DNA of 64,000 nt from assembly GCF_021390325.1 (NCBI RefSeq), contig NZ_JAJUWU010000003.1, forward strand, positions 62,001-126,000, in the 5' to 3' direction. A model generated the notes under the pieces. That model worked only from the letters and a program-made list of their open reading frames with translations, did no database searches and was not told where the DNA came from. The DNA comes from Jiella avicenniae. Lineage in GTDB: Bacteria; Pseudomonadota; Alphaproteobacteria; Rhizobiales; Rhizobiaceae. Below are positions 12,150-44,332 of this stretch, piece after piece. The translations under genes were made by a program, and so were the position numbers. Each line of letters opens with the position of its first letter. The stretch's first letter is position 1.

Positions 12150-12274
12150 GATCTCCCCCCTTGCGGGGGAGATGCCGGCAGGCAGAGGGGGGTGACGTCG
12201 CGCTGGACTGCTGAGAAATGGCGCGACACCCCCCTCTGGGTTGCCACCCATCTCCCCCGCAAGGGGGGAGATCG
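12150..12274. repeat. Paired GC-rich palindromic repeats (family A)
   Basis: Two inverted copies of a ~45-bp unit: 12150-12194 contains a CTCCCCC...GGGGGAG hairpin and then GCCGGCAGGCAGAGGGGGGT, and 12227-12274 is its reverse complement with small differences. Together they can fold into a ~125-bp cruciform. The same unit occurs at 33575-33693, inside a reading frame, and as a fragment near 30874. It resembles REP/BIME-type elements common between rhizobial genes. Confidence 0.8.
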
Positions 12275-29275: not shown

Positions 29276-30832
29276 ATGCGAAAACTCGTTGCCGCCGCGT
29301 TCGCCCTCTGCGCCATGGTCCTGACGCCTCCCGCCCTCGCGCAGACGCCGCCGAACGTGCTCATCGTGGGCCAGATCGCCGAGCCCAAGTCGCTCGATCC
29401 GCAGGCCGTGACCGCGACCAACGACTTCCGCATCCTGATGAACGTCTATGACGGGCTGGTCCGCTTCAAGAAGGGCACGCTCGAGGTCGAGCCGGCGCTG
29501 GCGAAGAGCTGGGACATCTCCGAGGACGGCAAGACCTACACCTTCCATCTGCGCGACGACGTGACCTTCCAGGACGGCACGCCCTTCAATGCCGAGGCGG
29601 TGAAGTTCACCTTCGACCGGATGCTGAAGGACGACCACCCGTTCCACGACACCGGGCCGTTCCCCCTCGCCTTCTTCTTCTCGCAGGTCGACGAGGTGAC
29701 CGCCAAGGACGAGCACACCGTGGTGTTCAAGCTGAAAGAGCCTTTCGCGCCGTTCCTGTCCAATCTCGCCTATCCGACAGGGCTGATCGTCTCGCCGGCG
29801 GCGGTGAAGGAATACGGCCAGGATTTCGGCCGCCATCCGGTCGGCACCGGGGCGTTCAAGTTCGAGGGCTGGGACCCGAATTCCAAGGTCGTCGTCTCCC
29901 GCAACGAGGATTACTGGGACGGCGCCCCGCAGCTCGAAGCCGTGGTGTTCCGCCCCATCGCCGATGCCAACACCCGCGTTGCCGAAATGCTGTCGGGCGG
30001 CATCGACCTGATGGTCGAGGTGCCGCCGGACGGGCTGGCGCAATTCCGGCAGGACGAGAACTACACCGTCTACGAGGAAGCCGGGCCGCATCTGTGGTTC
30101 CTGATCCTCAACACCAGGGAAGGTCCCTTCTCCGACAAGCGCGTGCGCCAGGCGGTGAACTACGCGATCGACAAGAAGGCGCTCACCGAAGACGTCCTGC
30201 AGGGCACCGCCACGATTGCGGAAGGGCCGATCCCCGGCGCCTTCGAATGGGCCAATGACGGCTCGGTCGAGCCCTATCCCCACGATCCTGAAAAGGCGAA
30301 AGAGCTGATCCGTGCCGCCGGCGCCGAAGGCAAGACGCTGACCTTCTATGTTCCGGAAGGCGGCTCCGGCATGCTCGATCCGGTGGCGATGGCGACCGCC
30401 ATCCAGGCGGATCTGAAGAAGGTCGGTCTCGACGCCCGCATCCAGACCTACGAGTGGAACACCTATCTCGCCAACGTCAATCCGGGCCTTCAAGGCAAGG
30501 CCGACATGGCCGAGATGGCCTGGATGACCAACGATCCGGACACGCTGCCCTTCCTGGCGCTGAGGACCGACGCGATGCCGGACGAGGGCGGCTTCAACTC
30601 CGGCTACTATTCCAACCCGGAGGTCGACGCGCTGCTCGACGAAGCCCGCAAGACCACCGACCAGGAAAAGCGCGGCGAACTCTACGAAAAGGTCCAGAAG
30701 ATCGTCCACGACGACGCGCCCTGGGCCTTCGTCGCCAACTGGAAGCAGAACGCCGTGTCGACGGCGGCTGTGCAGGGCTTCGAGTTGGAGCCGTCGTTCC
30801 TGCTGGTGCTGAAGGACGTGACGAAGGGGTGA
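29276..30832 (+). CDS. ABC transporter substrate-binding protein, family 5 (peptide/nickel type)
   Basis: A 518-residue periplasmic binding protein. The signal peptide MRKLVAAAFALCAMVLTPPALA is followed by the family-5 opening (EPKSLDPQAVTATNDF), the SBP_bac_5 signature region (LAKSWDISEDGKTYTFHLRDDVTFQDGTPFNAEAVKF) and FSDKRVRQAVNYAIDKKAL. It delivers oligopeptides or a similar ligand to the permease downstream. Unusually, 799 bp containing three repeat elements separate it from dppB, so its expression may be set apart from the membrane genes. Confidence 0.92.
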   Translation: MRKLVAAAFALCAMVLTPPALAQTPPNVLIVGQIAEPKSLDPQAVTATNDFRILMNVYDGLVRFKKGTLEVEPALAKSWDISEDGKTYTFHLRDDVTFQDGTPFNAEAVKFTFDRMLKDDHPFHDTGPFPLAFFFSQVDEVTAKDEHTVVFKLKEPFAPFLSNLAYPTGLIVSPAAVKEYGQDFGRHPVGTGAFKFEGWDPNSKVVVSRNEDYWDGAPQLEAVVFRPIADANTRVAEMLSGGIDLMVEVPPDGLAQFRQDENYTVYEEAGPHLWFLILNTREGPFSDKRVRQAVNYAIDKKALTEDVLQGTATIAEGPIPGAFEWANDGSVEPYPHDPEKAKELIRAAGAEGKTLTFYVPEGGSGMLDPVAMATAIQADLKKVGLDARIQTYEWNTYLANVNPGLQGKADMAEMAWMTNDPDTLPFLALRTDAMPDEGGFNSGYYSNPEVDALLDEARKTTDQEKRGELYEKVQKIVHDDAPWAFVANWKQNAVSTAAVQGFELEPSFLLVLKDVTKG

Positions 30833-30968
30833 GCGGGGACATGCTCGCTCGACCAACTTTCAGGCGCCGGCGCAGCACCCCCCTCTGGGCTGCCGAGTGG
30901 AGCGGGGTCGAGGTCGACAAGACGGCGCGTAAAGTCACTGGCCCGACCGGCCGATATAACGCAAAGGC

Positions 30969-31099
30969 CGTCATCCTCGGGCTTGTCCCGAGGATCTCCT
31001 GCCACATCCACGCTAAAACCGTCGGCGAATGGCGAAATACCGCCAGCGCTTTTGTCGCTGCAACGTCGGTAGATCCTCGGCACAAGACCGAGGATGACG
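30969..31099. repeat. 130-bp inverted-repeat element (family B), copy 1
   Basis: It begins CGTCATCCTCGGGCTTGTCC and ends with the inverted form ending GAGGATGACG. Each end is itself a hairpin (CCTCGGG-CTTGT-CCCGAGG). The right arm here has two substitutions (CCTCGGcacaagaCCGAGG). A ~75-bp core is shared in outline with copies 2 and 3. Confidence 0.85.
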
Positions 31100-31188
31100 C
31101 CGCAGCTCAGGGCAACGCCAAGGCCGGGCGCGACGCGGCGGGAACGCTCGCAGCGCTTCGGTCGCATGCACGCAAAGAGAAACGCGCC

Positions 31189-31318
31189 CTCATCCTCGGG
31201 CTTGTCCCGAGGATCTCCGGCCGCCTCTGCGACGGAAGCGGTCACGGTAAGCACTCATCCGCCGACGCTTATGGTGCCGCACCGTCGGTAGATCCTCGGG
31301 ACAAGCCCGAGGATGACG
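31189..31318. repeat. 130-bp inverted-repeat element (family B), copy 2
   Basis: Same architecture as the copy at 30969. The left end starts at CATCCTCGGGCTTGTCCCG and the right end is CGGGACAAGCCCGAGGATG, both perfect. The core contains CGTCGGTAGATCC before the right arm, as in copy 1. Length 130 bp. Confidence 0.85.
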
Positions 31319-31457
31319 CCGGGGGTGGGGCTGCAGATGCGACCGGGAGCACCCCTGCGCGATGCAGCGCGGCGGTAAACCAGTCGAAGTCATATCGGTC
31401 CTCCCACGACCATTGCATCGCTCCCTACGATCAGGCGACCTCGCCCCCCAAACGCGC

Positions 31458-31588
31458 CGTCATCCTCGGGCTTGTCCCGAGGATCTACCGCCGTGGACGA
31501 AACAGAGGCGTTGCCGGCATTCGGCCATTCGCCAACGCTTCTGTAGCGGCACCCTCCGCAGATCCTCGGGACAAGCCCGAGGATGACG
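31458..31588. repeat. 130-bp inverted-repeat element (family B), copy 3
   Basis: Both arms are perfect and the core (with GGCATTCGGCCATTCGCC) is diverged from the other two. It ends 43 bp before the dppB-type start codon, so a transcript from upstream would carry this hairpin in the leader of the permease gene. Confidence 0.85.
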
Positions 31589-31631
31589 CCGCGGTCGGGC
31601 CGGCGTGCCATCTCCATCGGCGGCCCCACCC

Positions 31632-32576
31632 ATGACCGCCACCATCGCCAAACGCCTCCTCGCCGCCATCCCAGTCCTGTTCGGCCTCTCGATCATCGTC
31701 TTCCTGATGATCGCGCTCATTCCCGGCGACCCGGCGACCGCGATCCTCGGCTCCTATGCGACGCCGGAGAACGTCGCGCGGCTCAACGCCTCGCTCGGCT
31801 TGGACAAGAGCCTGCCGCAGCAATATCTCGCCTGGATCTCCGGCGTCCTCAGCGGCGATTTCGGCCGTTCCTACGCGCTCAACCGGCCGGTGATCGACAT
31901 CGTGCTGGAGCGGTTCTCGGCGACGCTGCTCCTCGCCGGCGCCTCGCTGCTGCTCGCCACCGTCTTCGGCCTTCTCGCCGGCATCGTCTCGGCGGTGCGC
32001 CAGTTCGGCTTCGCCGACAAGGCGATCACGCTGGCCGTCCTCGTCGGCATCTCGGTGCCGTCCTTCTGGCTGGGGCTCCTGCTGATCCTGTTCTTCGCGG
32101 TGAAGATCAAGCTCTTTCCGGCGAGCGGCATGGTGGCGATCTACGGCGGCGGCGGGCCGCTCGACATTCTCCACCACCTCGTCCTGCCAGCGATCACGCT
32201 GGCGCTCGTCGCCACCGGCGTCATCGCCCGCCTCACCCGCACGGCGATGCTCGAAGTGCTGCGCCAGGATTACATCCGCACCGCGCGCGCCAAGGGTCTC
32301 ACCGAGCGCCGGGTGATCTTCCGCCATGCCTTCATGGCGGCGCTGGTCTCGGTGATCCCGGTGATCGGGATCCAGGCCGGCTTCGTCCTCGGCGGCGCGG
32401 TCTATGTCGAGACCGTATTCCAGTGGCCGGGCATCGGGGCGATGCTGGTCAACGCCATCTCCCAGCGCGACATCCTGCTCGTCCAGGGCGGCGTCCTCGT
32501 CGTCGCGGCCTCCTACGTCCTCTTCAACCTCCTCGCCGACGTCTGCCAGACCCTGCTCGATCCGAGGCTGAAATGA
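31632..32576 (+). CDS. ABC transporter permease, DppB/OppB type
   Basis: A 314-residue inner-membrane protein with six transmembrane segments. The N-terminal FGLSIIVFLMIALIPGDPA is diagnostic of DppB/OppB permeases. The EAA loop region is QDYIRTARAKGLTERRVIFRHA, and the end VCQTLLDPRLK is typical. It forms the channel with the second permease. The start is ATG 31632; its stop overlaps the next gene's ATG (ATGA). Confidence 0.93.
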   Translation: MTATIAKRLLAAIPVLFGLSIIVFLMIALIPGDPATAILGSYATPENVARLNASLGLDKSLPQQYLAWISGVLSGDFGRSYALNRPVIDIVLERFSATLLLAGASLLLATVFGLLAGIVSAVRQFGFADKAITLAVLVGISVPSFWLGLLLILFFAVKIKLFPASGMVAIYGGGGPLDILHHLVLPAITLALVATGVIARLTRTAMLEVLRQDYIRTARAKGLTERRVIFRHAFMAALVSVIPVIGIQAGFVLGGAVYVETVFQWPGIGAMLVNAISQRDILLVQGGVLVVAASYVLFNLLADVCQTLLDPRLK

Positions 32577-34768
32577 GCGGCGCCGCGACGACCTCGGACA
32601 CGGGCGCCGGGACATCGGGCAAAGAGCGCCGCGAGCGGCCCTCGACCTTCGCGCTGATCCTCAACAACCGGCTCGCGGCGGCGGGTCTCGCCGTCCTCGG
32701 CCTGATCGTCCTCGCAGCCGTCGCCGCGCCGATCCTGCCGCTCGCCGATCCCAACGCCACCGATCCGGCGAACCGCCTCGCACCGCTGCTCTCCGAGGGC
32801 CACCTCCTCGGCACCGACGCGCTCGGCCGCGACATGCTCTCGCGCCTCGTCTGGGGCACGCGGGTCTCGCTCGTCGTCGGCTTCTCGGCCTCGCTGATCG
32901 CGGCCCTCTTCGGCTCGGCCATCGGCCTCGTCGCCGGCTATGCCGGCGGGCGCAGCGACCAGATCCTGATGCGGCTGATCGACCTGATGATGGCCTTTCC
33001 CTACATCCTGCTCGCCCTCGCCATCGTCGCGATCCTCGGGCCCGGCCTCGTCAACGCGCTCTACGCCATCGCCATCGTCAACGTGCCGTTCTTCGCCCGT
33101 AACATCCGCGGCATCACCGTCGGCCTCGCGCGCCGGGAATTCGTCGACGCCGCCCGCCTCTCCGGCAAGGGCCCGCTGACGATCCTGTGGTCCGACATGC
33201 TGCCCAACGTCCTGCCGACCATCGTCATCACCCTGTCGACCACCGTCGGCTGGATGATCCTCGAGACGGCGGGCCTCTCCTTCCTCGGCCTCGGCGCCCA
33301 GCCGCCCCAGGCCGATCTCGGCTCGATGCTCGGCGACGGCCGCAAGGTGATGTTCACCGCGCCGACGATCTCGCTGGTGCCCGGGCTGATGATCTTCCTC
33401 ATCGTCATGAGCATCAACCTCCTCGGCGACGGCATCCGCGACGCGCTGGATCCCCGACTGCGGTCAGGCGCGCTGGCGCGGCCCTCGTTCCGCACGAAGG
33501 TGGCGAAAGGGCGGAGGATGCCGGGGGAAGATGTCGAAGGCGCGGATCTGCCGGCCGATGCTGGCGGCGGCGTTCACCCCCCTCTGCCTGCCGGCAACTC
33601 CCCCGCAAGGGGGGAGATCGATGGGTCGGGGACGTCGGCGGCAGCTGATCTCCCCCCTTGTGGGGGAGATGCCCGGCAGGGCAGAGGGGGGTTGCCAGGC
33701 ACCAACACCTCAAGCCAGACCGCTACCCCCGTCCTCGCCGTCCGTGGACTCGAAACCGAGTTCCACATGGGCTCGGAGGTCTACCACGCGTCCAACGGCG
33801 TCGATCTCACCATCCGGCCCGGCGAATGCCTCGGTCTCGTCGGCGAATCCGGGTCCGGCAAGTCGGTGACGGCGATGAGCCTGATGGGACTGGTTCCCTC
33901 CCCGCCGGGCGTGATCGCCGGCGGGCGCGTCGGCTTCAAGGGCGAAGACCTCGCCGACGCGCCGGACAAGCGCATCCGCGCGCTGCGCGGCGGCGCCGTC
34001 AGCCATGTCTTCCAGGATCCGCTGGCGACGCTTCACCCCCTCTTCTCCGTCGGCGACCAGATCGTCGAGGCGATCCGCGCCCATCAGCCGCTGTTCAAGC
34101 GGGCGGCCGAAACGAAGGCGCGCGAGCTTCTCGATCTCGTCCGCATTCCCAATGCCGCCCAGCGGATGAAGGCCCTGCCGCATGAGCTCTCCGGAGGGCT
34201 GCGCCAGCGCGTCTCGATCGCCATGGCGCTCGCCAACGATCCGGAACTGATCATCGCCGACGAGCCGACCACCGCCCTCGACGTGACGGTCCAGGCCGAG
34301 GTCCTGCGGCTCCTCGACACGCTCCGCCGCGAGCGCGACACTGCCGTCCTCTTCATCACCCACGACTTCGGCGTGGTCTCCGAGATCGCCGACCGGGTGG
34401 CGGTGATGTATGCCGGCCGCATCGTCGAGACCGGCGCGACGGACGAGATCCTGACCGACCCCGCCCATCCCTATACCCGCATGCTGATCGACTGCGTGCC
34501 CGTCATGGGCGAGCCGGAGCGCCGCCTCGACGCCGTGCCGGGCCGGCCTCCGGCGGCAAATCGCCTGCCGCCCGGCTGCGCCTTCGCCGATCGCTGTCCG
34601 CGCGTCGAGGCCGACTGCCGCAAGGGCGAGATCGGGCTGGAGGACGAGCGCGGCAGCCTCGCAGCGCGCTGCCTCCATCCGCTCGCCCCGGGCGAAGCGC
34701 TGGCGGGCGGTCCAATTCCGGACGGGGCCGGTTCTGGCCGTCCGAGCGGCCGCGAGGTATCGCCATGA
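32573..34768 (+). CDS. Fused ABC transporter permease (DppC type) and ATP-binding protein (DppD type)
   Basis: One uninterrupted 731-residue frame. Residues 1-300 form a DppC permease (GTDALGRDMLSRLVWGTRVSL, EAA loop REFVDAARLSGKGPL, end GDGIRDALDPRLR). Residues ~370-720 form a DppD ATPase (Walker A GESGSGKSV, signature LSGGLRQRVSIAMAL, Walker B LIIADEPTTALD, C-terminal oligopeptide-ATPase cysteines CAFADRCPRVEADC). The ~65-residue linker is encoded by family-A palindromic repeats (33575-33693) read in frame. Permease/ATPase fusions are known in this transporter class. A separate ATPase start, such as TTG 33692 after AGAGGGGGG, is possible but badly spaced. Confidence 0.88.
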   Translation: MSGAATTSDTGAGTSGKERRERPSTFALILNNRLAAAGLAVLGLIVLAAVAAPILPLADPNATDPANRLAPLLSEGHLLGTDALGRDMLSRLVWGTRVSLVVGFSASLIAALFGSAIGLVAGYAGGRSDQILMRLIDLMMAFPYILLALAIVAILGPGLVNALYAIAIVNVPFFARNIRGITVGLARREFVDAARLSGKGPLTILWSDMLPNVLPTIVITLSTTVGWMILETAGLSFLGLGAQPPQADLGSMLGDGRKVMFTAPTISLVPGLMIFLIVMSINLLGDGIRDALDPRLRSGALARPSFRTKVAKGRRMPGEDVEGADLPADAGGGVHPPLPAGNSPARGEIDGSGTSAAADLPPCGGDARQGRGGLPGTNTSSQTATPVLAVRGLETEFHMGSEVYHASNGVDLTIRPGECLGLVGESGSGKSVTAMSLMGLVPSPPGVIAGGRVGFKGEDLADAPDKRIRALRGGAVSHVFQDPLATLHPLFSVGDQIVEAIRAHQPLFKRAAETKARELLDLVRIPNAAQRMKALPHELSGGLRQRVSIAMALANDPELIIADEPTTALDVTVQAEVLRLLDTLRRERDTAVLFITHDFGVVSEIADRVAVMYAGRIVETGATDEILTDPAHPYTRMLIDCVPVMGEPERRLDAVPGRPPAANRLPPGCAFADRCPRVEADCRKGEIGLEDERGSLAARCLHPLAPGEALAGGPIPDGAGSGRPSGREVSP
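33575..33693. repeat. Paired family-A palindromic repeats inside a reading frame
   Basis: 33575-33620 (CACCCCCCTCTGCCTGCCGG onward to GGGGGGAGATCG) and 33647-33693 (GATCTCCCCCCTTGTGGGGG onward to GCAGAGGGGGGTT) are inverted copies of the unit also seen at 12150-12274, in the opposite relative order. They keep the frame open and encode the permease-ATPase linker (HPPLPAGNSPARGEI and DLPPCGGDARQGRGGLP). Confidence 0.85.
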
Positions 34769-35739
34769 GCGAGACCGGTCCGCTCATGGAAATCCGCGAT
34801 CTCGCCCGCAGCTTCGGCGGCGGACGGACGATCTTCGGCACGAAGAAGCCGCAGCTCACCGCCGTGCGCGGCGTCTCCCTCGATCTGACGAAGGGCGAGA
34901 CGCTCGGCATCGTCGGGGAATCCGGCTGCGGCAAATCCACCCTCGCCCGCATGCTGGTCGGCCTCGACAGGCCGACGCGCGGCGCCATCCGCCTCGACGG
35001 CGAGGACCTGTCGGCCTCCGGCACGCAAGCCCTCGCCAGACGCGTCCAATACGTCTTCCAGGACCCGGTCTCCTCGCTCAATCCGCGCCAGACCATCCGC
35101 GCCATCCTCGAAGCGCCGATGCGCCACCTCCTCGGCCTCGGCAAAGACCAGCGAAAGGCGCGGCTGGAGACGCTGATCGAGGACGTGAACCTGCGGCCGG
35201 AATTCCTCGATCGCTATCCGCACGAATTTTCCGGCGGCCAGGCCCAGCGGATCGGCATCGCCCGGGCGCTCGCGGCCGAGCCGGACGTCGTCGTCCTCGA
35301 CGAGCCGGTCTCGGCCCTCGACGTCTCGGTACAGGCGCAGGTGCTCAATCTTCTCGACCGGCTGAAGCGCGACCGGGGCCTCACCTACGTCTTCATCAGC
35401 CACGACCTCGCGGTGGTCGAGAGCGTCGCGACGCGGGTGGCGGTGATGTATTTCGGCGAGATCGTCGAAACCGCCCCGGCCCGCGATCTGTTCCGCGCCC
35501 CGCTCCATCCCTATACGGACCTTCTCATCCGCTCCGCCCCCGTGCCGAACCGCAAGCGGCAGGCCACCTCCGGCGACAGCGGCGAGCTGCCGGACCCCTA
35601 CGACCCACCGCCCGGCTGCCCCTTCGCCCCCCGCTGCCCGCGGGCCGAAGCCGACTGCCGCGAGGCGATGCCGCCGCTGGAACCCAGGGATCGCGGCGGT
35701 GCGCATCGGGCAGCGTGTTTCCATCCGCTGGCGGATTGA
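34765..35739 (+). CDS. ABC transporter ATP-binding protein, DppF/OppF type
   Basis: A 324-residue ATPase: Walker A GESGCGKST, Q-loop YVFQDPVSSLNPRQT, signature FSGGQAQRIGIARAL, Walker B VVVLDEPVSALDVSVQAQVL, H-loop FISHDLAVV. The C-terminal oligopeptide-transporter module GCPFAPRCPRAEADC...CFHPL probably binds an iron-sulfur cluster. It pairs with the ATPase half of the fused protein. The ATG overlaps the preceding stop by four bases. This is the last gene of the transporter operon. Confidence 0.93.
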   Translation: MSETGPLMEIRDLARSFGGGRTIFGTKKPQLTAVRGVSLDLTKGETLGIVGESGCGKSTLARMLVGLDRPTRGAIRLDGEDLSASGTQALARRVQYVFQDPVSSLNPRQTIRAILEAPMRHLLGLGKDQRKARLETLIEDVNLRPEFLDRYPHEFSGGQAQRIGIARALAAEPDVVVLDEPVSALDVSVQAQVLNLLDRLKRDRGLTYVFISHDLAVVESVATRVAVMYFGEIVETAPARDLFRAPLHPYTDLLIRSAPVPNRKRQATSGDSGELPDPYDPPPGCPFAPRCPRAEADCREAMPPLEPRDRGGAHRAACFHPLAD

Positions 35740-36074
35740 CGAGAAGCCGCCAGCCTCAAGGCGTCGTCATTCTCGGGCCCCGTCCCGAGAATCCAGGGGA
35801 CACAACGCGCCCGTCGTTTCAGCTGCGTGACGTCCAGACCAACAACGTTGAGGAGGCGGCCTCTGGATTCTCGGGACGGGGCCCGAGAATGACGAAGCGT
35901 CGATTGACGTGGCCCTTCCGTCAACGCCGAAGCTCAACGAGTTGGCGTTGCCGACAAATCCGGTACGGACCTGCCCCGTCCCTGCCGGCGCCTTGCCGAA
36001 ACGATCGTCCCTGAAGCGGGCCTCCCCCCAGATGAGCGCGCACCGCGTCCAGGCAGGAACGCAACTCCAAACCC
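35740..36074. other. 335-bp convergent intergenic region
   Basis: It lies between the ABC operon and the convergent TRAP binding-protein gene. The first half is the fourth 130-bp repeat element. The remainder, 35895-36074, shows no gene or clear signal. Confidence 0.6.
35765..35894. repeat. 130-bp inverted-repeat element (family B), variant copy 4
   Basis: Same length and layout as the copies at 31 kb, but with ATTCTCGGG/CCCGAGAAT in place of ATCCTCGGG/CCCGAGGAT. The C-to-T change on one side of each stem is matched by G-to-A on the other, so the hairpins are preserved. The loop is CCCCGT. It ends CGAGAATGACG. Confidence 0.85.
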
Positions 36075-37181
36075 TCAGATCGCCCCGCTGCGCTGCTGGA
36101 TCATCATGAAGGTGTCGAAGTTGTATTCGGCGAGCTGCTCCCACAGGAAGCTCTCGCCGCGGAACGCCGTCTGGCTGTCGTAGAGCGTCTTGAAGGTCGC
36201 GTTCTTCCCGGCGATGTCCTTCATGACCTCCTGGCTGGCCCTGAAGCTCGCCTGCATGATCTCCTGGCTGAAGGGGCGGAGCTGCGCGCCCTTGCCGACG
36301 AGGCTCTTGATCGCCTTGGGGTTTTCCCAATCGTAGGTGGCGAGCATATGGCCGTTCGCCGCCTCGCAGGCCGCCTTGACCACCGCCTGATAGGGCTTCG
36401 GCAGCTCGTTCCACCTGTCGAGGGTGATCATCGCATGGGTGGCGGCGCCGCCCTCCCACCAGGCGGGATAATAGTAATAGGGCGCCACCTTCACGAAGCC
36501 GAGCTTCTCGTCGTCAAAGGGGCCGACGAACTCGACGGCGTCGAGCGTGCCCTTTTCCAGCGCGGCATAGATGTCGCCGGCCGGGATCTGCTGCGGCACG
36601 ACGCCGAGCTTCGCCATCACCTGCCCCGCCAGGCCGGCGATGCGCATCTTCAGCCCCTTCATGTCGGCGAGGGAATTGATCTCGTTGCGGTACCAGCCGC
36701 CCATCTGGGCGCCGGTGTTGCCGGCCGGCCGGGCGAAGACGCCGTGCTTTTCGAAGAACGCGTCGAGCAGCTCGTTGCCGCCGCCCCGATAGAACCAGGC
36801 GTTCTGCTGGCGGGCGTTGAGCATGAAGGGAACCGTCGTGCCGAACGCGAAGGCCGGATCCTTGCCGACATAGTAGTAGGACGCCGTATGCCCCATCTCG
36901 ACCGTGCCGCTCTGCACCGCGTCGAGCACCTGGCCGCCGGGGACGATCTCGCCGGCCGCGAAGGGTTGGATCGTGAAGGCGCCGTCGGTCATCTCCTTCA
37001 CGTAGTTGGAAATGTATTCCGAGGCACCGAACAGCGCCGGCAGCGAGTTCGGGAAGGACGAGACGCAGCGCCACTGAAGCTTCGGATTGCTCTGAGCGAG
37101 GGCCGGCGCCGCAAGGCTCGAGGCCGCGCCGAAGCCGGCAGCGCCGGTGGCGACGCCGCGGATGAATTTGCGTCTGTCCAT
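36075..37181 (-). CDS. Orphan TRAP-type substrate-binding protein 1 (Tat-like signal)
   Basis: A 368-residue DctP-family protein with a Tat-type leader (MDRRKFIRGVATGAAGFGAA, cut near APALAQ). The GNTGAQMGGWYRNEINS and [23 protein letters not shown] blocks are those of the TakP/alpha-keto-acid type of TRAP binding protein (the conserved Arg contacts the ligand carboxylate; MGGWYRNEI is typical). No DctQ or DctM gene is adjacent. It is a close paralogue of the gene 352 bp upstream. The start is ATG 37181 with AAGG upstream. Confidence 0.9.
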   Translation of the reverse strand: MDRRKFIRGVATGAAGFGAASSLAAPALAQSNPKLQWRCVSSFPNSLPALFGASEYISNYVKEMTDGAFTIQPFAAGEIVPGGQVLDAVQSGTVEMGHTASYYYVGKDPAFAFGTTVPFMLNARQQNAWFYRGGGNELLDAFFEKHGVFARPAGNTGAQMGGWYRNEINSLADMKGLKMRIAGLAGQVMAKLGVVPQQIPAGDIYAALEKGTLDAVEFVGPFDDEKLGFVKVAPYYYYPAWWEGGAATHAMITLDRWNELPKPYQAVVKAACEAANGHMLATYDWENPKAIKSLVGKGAQLRPFSQEIMQASFRASQEVMKDIAGKNATFKTLYDSQTAFRGESFLWEQLAEYNFDTFMMIQQRSGAI

Positions 37182-37532
37182 GAGTTCAACCTTTTTACAA
37201 CGCACGAAGCCGCCCGGTGGGGCGGCACACTGTTCGACGAAACGCGAAGCCGTCCTGGCAAAGCCGGCCGCGACGAGGCATTTTCCCGGAAGAGATGGAA
37301 AGGGTCGCTCCGCGCCCCGTGAGCGCCGCCGATGGGCCGTCGCTCGCCTGCCGTCGGGCGCGACCATAAGCCTGGCGGATCAAAACGCAAGCCTGCCGCC
37401 GGGCGGCGGGAACGACAGTGCCAAGCGATTTCCGGCCGGTGGAAGAAGGCCGACGCTCGCGGAAAATCTCCCGTCGGGCGGGAGAAGCGGGGTGGTGCGG
37501 CTCCTTGCAAGCCGCACCGTATCCTCAGGCGA
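37182..37532. other. 351-bp region between the two orphan TRAP genes
   Basis: It contains the terminator hairpins of the upstream paralogue at 37461-37517. The rest is GC-rich with several small inverted repeats (for example GCCGCCC-GGT-GGGGCGGC near 37207-37225) and no supported gene. It must also hold the promoter of the downstream paralogue if that is separately transcribed. Confidence 0.5.
37461..37517 (-). terminator. Probable terminator after orphan TRAP protein 2
   Basis: On the minus strand, 16 bases past the stop: hairpin GTGCGGCT/AGCCGCAC (37495-37517), then a second hairpin CTCCCG-cccga-CGGGAG (37468-37484) followed by ATTTTCC. The second has the T-run expected of rho-independent termination. 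Confidence 0.5.
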
Positions 37533-38675
<1,143 letters not shown>

Positions 38676-43811: not shown

Positions 43812-44332
43812 GGCCCGAGCTTGCTCCAAGCTTGAGAAAGTGGCCGCAAATCCGCAACCTCGTCCCTTCCTTCAACGCCGGCGGCAAAAAATCAACCTTG
43901 GGCCCTCCCGGCCCTTGCGTATGACGAAAACTCGGCATACATCGCCGGTTGCCCCATGTCGCACGTGCCTGTGGGCGTCCCACGGTCCTCAGATGCGAGG
44001 GTAGCCGTGACGGTACCTGGACGTAACACACCCAGTCGATTTCGCGAGCCGCGCGATATCGAGGACGCCTTGAAGCAACGACGGTCCGGGCCTTTCTGGT
44101 CTCTCCCGGTCTCCACAGCCGGGAATACTGAAGAGGCACACCATCCTTGCCTGAAGTGCGGCGGGTTCAAGCCCTCCAAACCATGGCAGACGAAAGCGGA
44201 ATGCTCGCGTTGCTGCGCGGGTTTCCGACCAAGTCGCGTCGCGAAACCGTGACTCCCGTCAGGCGTTGTGCCGATCGGGCGAGCGGTGACGTACGCTCCC
44301 TGTCGACCCCTTCTGGTCCCTCGGAGGCACCC
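43812..44332 (+). promoter_or_regulatory. Long leader upstream of ornithine/lysine decarboxylase (possible speF-type element)
   Basis: 521 bp without a gene. The part after about 43930 is rich in local stems, for example CCCGG-tctccacag-CCGGG near 44107-44126, and includes several short ATG frames. An alphaproteobacterial cis-element called the speF motif is known upstream of such decarboxylase genes. This leader is in the right place and long enough, but the match has not been tested. Confidence 0.35.

Follow-up and report, generated by a model that had tools for sequence, protein, structure and literature searches.

CGTC-tagged palindrome dimers in a transporter operon of Jiella avicenniae as probable cores of decayed, Tn5-like mini-transposons

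Introduction

CGTC REPs are described, in the accessible text of the main paper on the class (Di Nocera, De Gregorio, Rocco 2013, PMC3733652), as having a CGTC tag, a 9-bp stem starting with AT, a 5-nt loop and a short unpaired tail; they occur mostly as head-to-head dimers with conserved or same-length spacers, lie in intergenic DNA 3' of genes in alphaproteobacteria and, according to the abstract, apparently have no dedicated transposase. The palindromes of Jiella avicenniae considered here share these features of structure (the tail less clearly), arrangement and placement, and stem and loop length put them near families 3/4 of that description. They differ from the CGTC REPs as presented there in that the Jiella unit is conserved beyond the tags, and in that a subset lies within an element having terminal inverted repeats (TIRs) and flanking duplications.

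Two further systems are close to the findings reported below. QMITE2 of Coxiella burnetii, as the accessible text has it, is a MITE with a REP inside, TIRs and direct repeats of 7-11 nt, found like the present elements mainly in 3' untranslated regions, and its smaller copies are REPs without TIRs that the authors termed truncated MITEs (PMC5896051). Unlike the CGTC elements, QMITE2 carries a GTAG-type REP, is 150-190 bp long and is a target of IS1111, according to the same text. ISRm22 of Sinorhizobium meliloti provides a precedent within the Rhizobiales for IS4-family insertion at the axis of a REP; in the available portion of that report (Tobes and Pareja 2006, PMC1525189) the REPs are targets only and the repeats are 6 bp, whereas the elements described here also carry CGTC dimers inside and have 9-11-bp repeats.

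With regard to function, the nearest comparison is E. coli malE-malF, where, as here, a stable structure separates the gene for the binding protein from that for the permease in an ABC operon. There the effect was shown experimentally, whereas the likeness here is one of position and predicted folds; in the accessible text, the stabilised gene in reported ABC operons is invariably that of the binding protein (PMC5927463).

The CGTC REP class, the REP within a MITE (GTAG type) and IS4-family insertion into Rhizobiales REPs are therefore already known from the available parts of these sources, and the novelty is the link of CGTC REPs to Tn5-like ends. A search of a limited literature collection found no paper making that link, and among the papers listed for CGTC REPs and MITEs it led only to the Coxiella GTAG case, in its accessible text (PMC5896051). 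The words "transposase" and "MITE" are absent from the accessible text of the RepRanger paper, and a string search with palindromes and peptides gave, among the matches listed, only the short string ATTCACACAT.

The reading proposed here, to which a probability of about 0.6 is assigned, is that CGTC dimers are the cores of mini-transposons moved by an IS4-family transposase, that those in the transporter operon are decayed, and that any effect on RNA is secondary. It points to a possible answer to what moves CGTC REPs; by proposing an enzyme, a rule for its targets and limits for the element, the link makes the transposase question testable in a simple transposition assay.

Three palindrome dimers in the transporter operon

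The window, that is, the whole 64,000-nt stretch of J. avicenniae DNA analysed, contains a transporter operon whose genes, named by reading, are given with their repeats in Table 1. Direct reading of the sequence confirmed three elements between the binding-protein gene and the first permease gene, as the sequence-only reading had placed them; the near-equality of the lengths given there (131, 130 and 131 bp) also holds, although with tags included all three measure 131 bp. Each begins with CGTCATCCTCGGGCTTGTCCCGAGGATC and closes with its inverted copy, the core between them being about 75 nt long; the stems of 8-9 bp, with loops of 4-5 nt, are preceded on the outside by the tag CGTC (or TGTC/CCTC). 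The left tag of element 2 is CCTC, not CGTC; the right palindrome of element 1 has two changes beside the loop (GGC..GAC); and element 3 ends 43 nt before the permease ATG. The three are CGTC-tagged REP head-to-head dimers. With up to 3 mismatches allowed, the palindrome pattern gave 12 strand matches in the window, all within these elements, against a shuffle mean of 0.10 and a largest shuffle value of 4. Folding z values for the RNA of the three copies were -6.8, -9.1 and -12.2, and in the minimum-energy fold the two ends pair in one long stem.

Table 1. Genes and repeats of the transporter operon, in window coordinates (R1, covariance model of the CGTC dimer family)
Feature	Position	Strand	Remarks
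Solute-binding protein gene	29276..30832	+	Upstream of array; named by reading
CCCCCCTCTGGGCTGCCG	30878..30895	+	Apparent remnant of C-rich palindrome dimer (direct reading)
Element 1 model unit	30945-31123	+	R1 match, 138.1 bits
Element 1	30969..31099	+	Type A CGTC head-to-head palindrome dimer; 131 bp
Element 2 model unit	31164-31342	-	Strand is core orientation
Element 2	31188..31318	-	Type A dimer; 131 bp
Element 3 model unit	31434-31612	-	Strand is core orientation
Element 3	31458..31588	-	Type A dimer; 131 bp
First permease gene	31632..32576	+	Downstream of array; named by reading
Second permease and first ATPase	32573..34768	+	Fused 731-codon frame; named by reading
C-rich palindrome dimer, not CGTC element	33574..33692	.	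In linker of fused permease-ATPase frame; inverted repeats I6, I10
Second ATPase gene	34765..35739	+	Last of operon; named by reading
Fourth element	35741..35918	-	Same architecture, type B palindrome (CATTCTCGGGN5CCCGAGAATC); inverted repeat I9

The operon holds other repeats as well. The fourth element, a full-length R1 match (79.3 bits), lies in the 335-bp gap behind the last gene. A single permease-ATPase frame is also present in seven relatives, with 633-741 codons (three of these measured from an inner start), and since in the window a C-rich dimer sits in the linker, that repeat is apparently carried in-frame within a coding region. At the position of CCCCCCTCTGGGCTGCCG, a C-rich dimer is intact in L031, L033, L034, L035 and G061 (L176). 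C-rich dimers occur in the window at 12150-12273 and at 33574-33692, in the form CCCCCCTCTG..CTCCCCC..GGGGGGAGATC; they constitute a separate repeat family, which also fills the gap between binding-protein and permease genes in relatives. An Rfam scan of the window gave no match to the array and three matches at other positions; the stretch 43951-44259 holds the sRNA ar45 and, immediately after it, a speF leader.

The repeat family in the genome and genus

The palindrome recurs in the genome: 71 + 70 strand matches, or about 70 palindromes, were found against 1 + 0 for the reversed pattern. In its many genomic copies the tags point outward and the dimers lie between unidirectional or convergent genes. 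Of 28 dimers extracted from this genome, 18 are exactly 131 bp. Because the dimer is nearly symmetric, its orientation must come from the core, and once the 28 dimers were oriented in this way a core consensus emerged. The earlier contrast of conserved ends with diverged cores was thus partly an effect of orientation; it stands insofar as mean pairwise core identity is still 46% over the 48 genus copies of exactly 131 bp. Conservation, measured as information content above background, extends about 20-24 nt beyond the tags, and the unpaired tail is mostly TAC/TCC after GATC, where the class description has mostly CCA.

R1 found matches at E<=1e-4 in 9 of 10 genomes of the genus set, whose named relatives are Jiella and Aurantimonas species; one genome had none. 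Among 93 oriented copies, which are the best-scoring of the loci examined and amount to 92 distinct ones (one Jiella mangrovi element appears twice, as L206 and as L031), the left stem has 23 double changes that keep pairing against 19 single and 3 double changes that break a pair, and the right stem 15 against 28 single and 9 double. The hairpin structure, judged from these comparisons, appears to be kept across family copies; 26 of the 38 kept double changes are one recurring G-C to C-G swap at the stem top, and so may reflect subfamilies and not independent events. Pairing between left and right tails showed no excess over permutation.

The genome contains a second three-copy array, L208 (G000:C48:187284-187956), whose copies resemble each other most, with 69-74% core identity.

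Gene context was counted for 30 of 32 copies in this genome, the other two being at locus edges, with gene calls from a simple codon-usage script that was checked on this operon only. Twenty-one copies lie between unidirectional and 9 between convergent genes; none is in a divergent gap or inside a predicted gene. This context fits transcribed 3' elements. By the same gene calls, 24 of 39 distances from a dimer to the adjacent gene 3' end are 70-160 nt, and the median convergent gap measures 332 bp where a dimer is present (n=10) and 70 bp where there is none (n=17), a difference of about 260 bp. Both are indirect signs, and they favour an origin from an element larger than the dimer.

A larger element with terminal inverted repeats

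In some copies the shared sequence amounts to about 300-360 bp, although most of them have different neighbouring genes (L019 and L154 being the same locus in two genomes), and their alignment terminates in the inverted repeat CCCTACARRATTCACACATYTC. The larger element so delimited is about 330 bp long, with inverted ends CTACANNATTCACACATCT and target duplications of 9-11 bp. The TIR pattern gave 41 strand matches in 7 of 10 genus genomes and none for the reversed control. In 91 of the 93 copies (two with short flanks were dropped), at least one TIR was present at a fixed offset in 11 and both in 6; by score, the best side reached at least 8 in 11 copies and at least 10 in 10, and both sides reached about 8 or more in 6. 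Of 182 flanks, 14 scored at least 10, a value that none of the 182 reversed or 179 distant control flanks reached; the matrix had been built in part from copies later scored with it.

Nineteen complete TIR pairs, made up of 18 of 22 candidate rows plus L247, span 214-348 bp; L240 was excluded as degenerate, and for L215, L222 and L229 the rows that were nested or alternative. By our own reading, 18 of the 19 have a central CGTC dimer (5 type A, 7 type B, 6 type C), while the remaining pair encloses a single palindrome. Outside the TIRs, 9 of the 19 pairs have direct repeats of 9 bp or more, one mismatch being allowed, against 1.83 expected from mismatched pairs; in other genera the figures are 9 of 12 against 1.55. 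Directly outside the CGTC tags, by contrast, target duplications were not above expectation in the 28 dimers of the J. avicenniae genome. Four complete pairs are in the J. avicenniae genome, where L218 has a direct repeat and L211, L229 and L237 have none. TIR-bearing elements having no CGTC dimer also occur (L288, L289, L298, L304 and L310), and the dimer is therefore not required.

Several of the TIR elements are inserted within the GGGN5CCC centre of another CGTC palindrome. L218, for example, is a type C element within a type A palindrome of the J. avicenniae genome, and joining its flanks restores the intact palindrome. Others are flanked by inverted halves instead of direct ones, as if two neighbouring insertions had recombined.

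Related elements and a candidate transposase

In the order as a whole, the TIR ends were found in 14 of 397 genomes, with one match for the reversed pattern. G274, of another genus and another family, holds seven elements of 232 or 233 bp, 96.7-99.2% identical to L291, which have a central CGTC dimer of different sequence and lie in CCCN3GGG palindromes with 9-11-bp duplications. Nineteen dimers of this genome were examined, taken from 30 loci of 110 strand matches by exact palindrome match, a sampling in which the youngest copies are over-represented; by raw count, 15 of them have a TIR on at least one side with up to 5 mismatches, the distance between tag and TIR being about 54 nt or 93-95 nt. 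Three of the 4 dimers that have no TIR form a tandem array, L362 (G274:C1:5938849-5939224), with spacings of 173 and 171 bp and similar spacers, which looks like a tandem duplication.

Insertion sequences (ISs) with these or related TIRs occur in other genera (L295, L315 and L319). The same TIRs bound a 1437-bp IS in G279, whose IS4-family transposase gene has one internal stop; the first piece matches NF033590 above its cut-off (E 6.6e-49), and at E<=0.001 neither of the two pieces matched Pfam, while NCBIfam and PDB did match. L315, in G173, has related TIRs (4-5 mismatches) and an intact transposase frame, L319 has related TIRs (2-3 mismatches) and a transposase in two pieces, and both have 10-bp duplications. 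Eleven NF033590 rows exceeded the cut-off in 121 genomes, and 2 of the 11 are flanked by this TIR on either side; at the stringency used, a match by chance is met about once in 20 kb of strand (90 matches in 1.82 million). Tn5 makes a 9-bp target duplication. The elements described here resemble Tn5/IS50 in their 19-nt ends finishing CACATCT, in duplications near 9 bp and in the similarity of the G279 transposase (first piece) to that of Tn5 (E 1.7e-16), and differ from Tn5/IS50 in the remaining end sequence. Since such TIRs surround CGTC dimers and also lie on a few IS4-family ISs, the dimers can probably travel as cores of Tn5-like MITEs.

The J. avicenniae genome (97.65% complete) has no match to an NF033590 transposase and none to a Y1/RAYT transposase (PF01797). 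The absence of a Y1 (HUH) match, together with a CGTC and not a GTAG tag, sets the family apart from REP/BIME mobilised by RAYT. No intact transposase of the NF033590 type was found in the genus; in 3 of 10 genomes there are matches that are weak or partial and stay below the cut-off.

Several other candidates were rejected. The two PF01609 matches in the J. avicenniae genome, one of them under the cut-off, both have no such TIRs, and none of 30 PF01609 loci examined in the genus, out of 54 matches listed, has a TIR on both sides. The Tn5 DNA-binding domain PF14706 occurs in 1 of 10 genus genomes, with no TIR nearby. An active IS considered for G066 on the strength of three identical TIRs was also set aside, as L241 and L242 are short type C elements and L243 is one-ended, open frames having been judged by reading. 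One PF01609 IS, L272 (G063:C34, 1021-2353), has ends near CCACTGCTGTCCGG and lies between two halves of type B CGTC palindromes.

Proposed mechanism and age of the array

The family would have spread in the form of non-autonomous mini-transposons, each about 330 bp long, with the CGTC dimer in the middle, an arm on either side of it and an inverted end beyond each arm. A Tn5-like transposase of the IS4 family would have mobilised them in trans. This enzyme would prefer targets that are palindromic and rich in GC, among them the middle of other CGTC palindromes; with GGGN5CCC, the top of the CGTC stem, as a preferred target, each inserted element would bring two new ones. In old copies, such as those of the window, ends and arms would have decayed, so that only the hairpin core is recognisable. 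The link would explain why the repeats often lie 70-160 nt behind stop codons, their nesting, and how one operon could fill with unrelated palindromes with no regulatory design. A wider generalisation, that Tn5-like mini-transposons nesting in each other's palindromes form a large class whose hairpin cores are the CGTC REPs, bare alphaproteobacterial dimers being their fossils, is tentative and is given somewhat less than even odds.

The window copies themselves have neither TIRs nor arms at the expected offsets. The earlier description of the array as MITE-like is accordingly supported for the family, by its TIRs (11 of 91 copies), duplications (9 of 19 pairs) and the G274 dimers (15 of 19), and not supported for these three copies. 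Element 2 has its best match in the set in G061 (L176), with 73% core identity, and element 3 in Jiella mangrovi (L031), also with 73%, each in the same operon gap; the background mean is 61% (sd 6). The first four matches of element 1 are likewise same-gap copies, at 63-64%, near background. Since the best matches share the gap in related species, the array was probably inherited, as far as sequence comparison can tell, with local duplication or conversion within it being possible. Repeated insertion at one place, as the sequence-only reading had it, is not upheld as a recent process, given these same-gap relatives of elements 2 and 3 and the genome's lack of an NF033590 or Y1 match; the window copies look like old, immobile residents.

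Alternative explanations

An alternative explanation of the array is regulatory: selection would keep the hairpins, and binding-protein mRNA would be raised over permease mRNA by 3' protection of the malE-malF type. The location between binding-protein and permease genes and the very stable folds agree with this, as do the precedents in malE-malF and other ABC operons in the accessible text of PMC5927463, and elements 2 and 3 find their nearest matches in the same gap of other species. By our own reading, moreover, a palindromic repeat of one kind or another fills the gap in 8 of the 9 genomes of Jiella/Aurantimonas type that were read (present in J. avicenniae, L031, L032, L033, L034, L035, L037 and G061, not in L036; L040, where no permease follows, and L042, L044 and L049 were left out of the count). 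However, the repeat families in the gap differ between species and the gap of L036 is about 91 bp; the same operon has a C-rich dimer in the permease-ATPase frame and a type B element after its last gene; and dimers lie behind many other genes. Selection for regulation is a fairly unlikely explanation of the array. Hairpins at this junction could nonetheless protect the upstream mRNA in the manner of malE-malF, and 3' protection or RNA processing may plausibly take place at the array. A very stable RNA hairpin in the spacer may stop 3' exonucleases and thereby favour the upstream mRNA, which would be a side effect and not the cause of the element's presence; this is a weaker part of the mini-transposon reading. 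Because other junctions carry repeats and the L036 gap is so short, any RNA effect is read as secondary.

In a second alternative, the bare dimer would be the mobile unit of another enzyme, and the large elements would have captured dimers or received dimer insertions. In its favour, most copies have no TIR or arms, palindromes of types A, B and C alike are set in one TIR frame, conservation drops near -24 instead of fading gradually toward about -100, and G274 holds the TIR-less tandem triplet. Beyond the training set, arm profiles added 2 copies at E<0.01; with so few arm matches, and no TIR on the window copies, the large-element origin is an inference for most copies. Against the bare dimer are the young G274 copies, which hold TIR and dimer at fixed offsets, the convergent gaps that are longer where a dimer is present, and the Y1 (RAYT-type) transposase that was not found in the genome. 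This second alternative is rather improbable.

It is very improbable that the dimer is a translated insert like the Rickettsia palindromic element, with one open frame per strand and insertion into genes. Among the 48 copies of 131 bp, the frame GTC-ATC-CTC (VILGLVPRI..DPRDKPEDD) runs without a stop in 41 on the + strand and 43 on the - strand. Shuffling the cores leaves it open in 26.4 on the + strand (maximum 35 in 300 shuffles), a comparison that overstates significance because the copies share ancestry. None of the 30 classified copies lies inside a predicted gene, however; no more than 48 of the 93 copies are 131 bp long; and stops in the + core of all 93 copies are no rarer in this frame (14 of 1736 codons) than in another + frame (13 of 1711). 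The open-frame observation covers 30454-31635 of the window as well as the family copies.

Least probable of all is an intrinsic terminator or attenuator ending most transcripts after the binding-protein gene, a role that the sequence-only reading had allowed for: strong hairpins do lie in the gap, but termination is unlikely because no U-tract follows the palindromes, and the sole terminator-like site on the coding strand is a 5-pair stem inside a core (31030-31045).

Beyond the operon, positions 36050-36461 and 37508-37919 of the window are 67-78% identical at a spacing of 1458 bp, and on reading they are apparently duplicated binding-protein genes of the minus strand.
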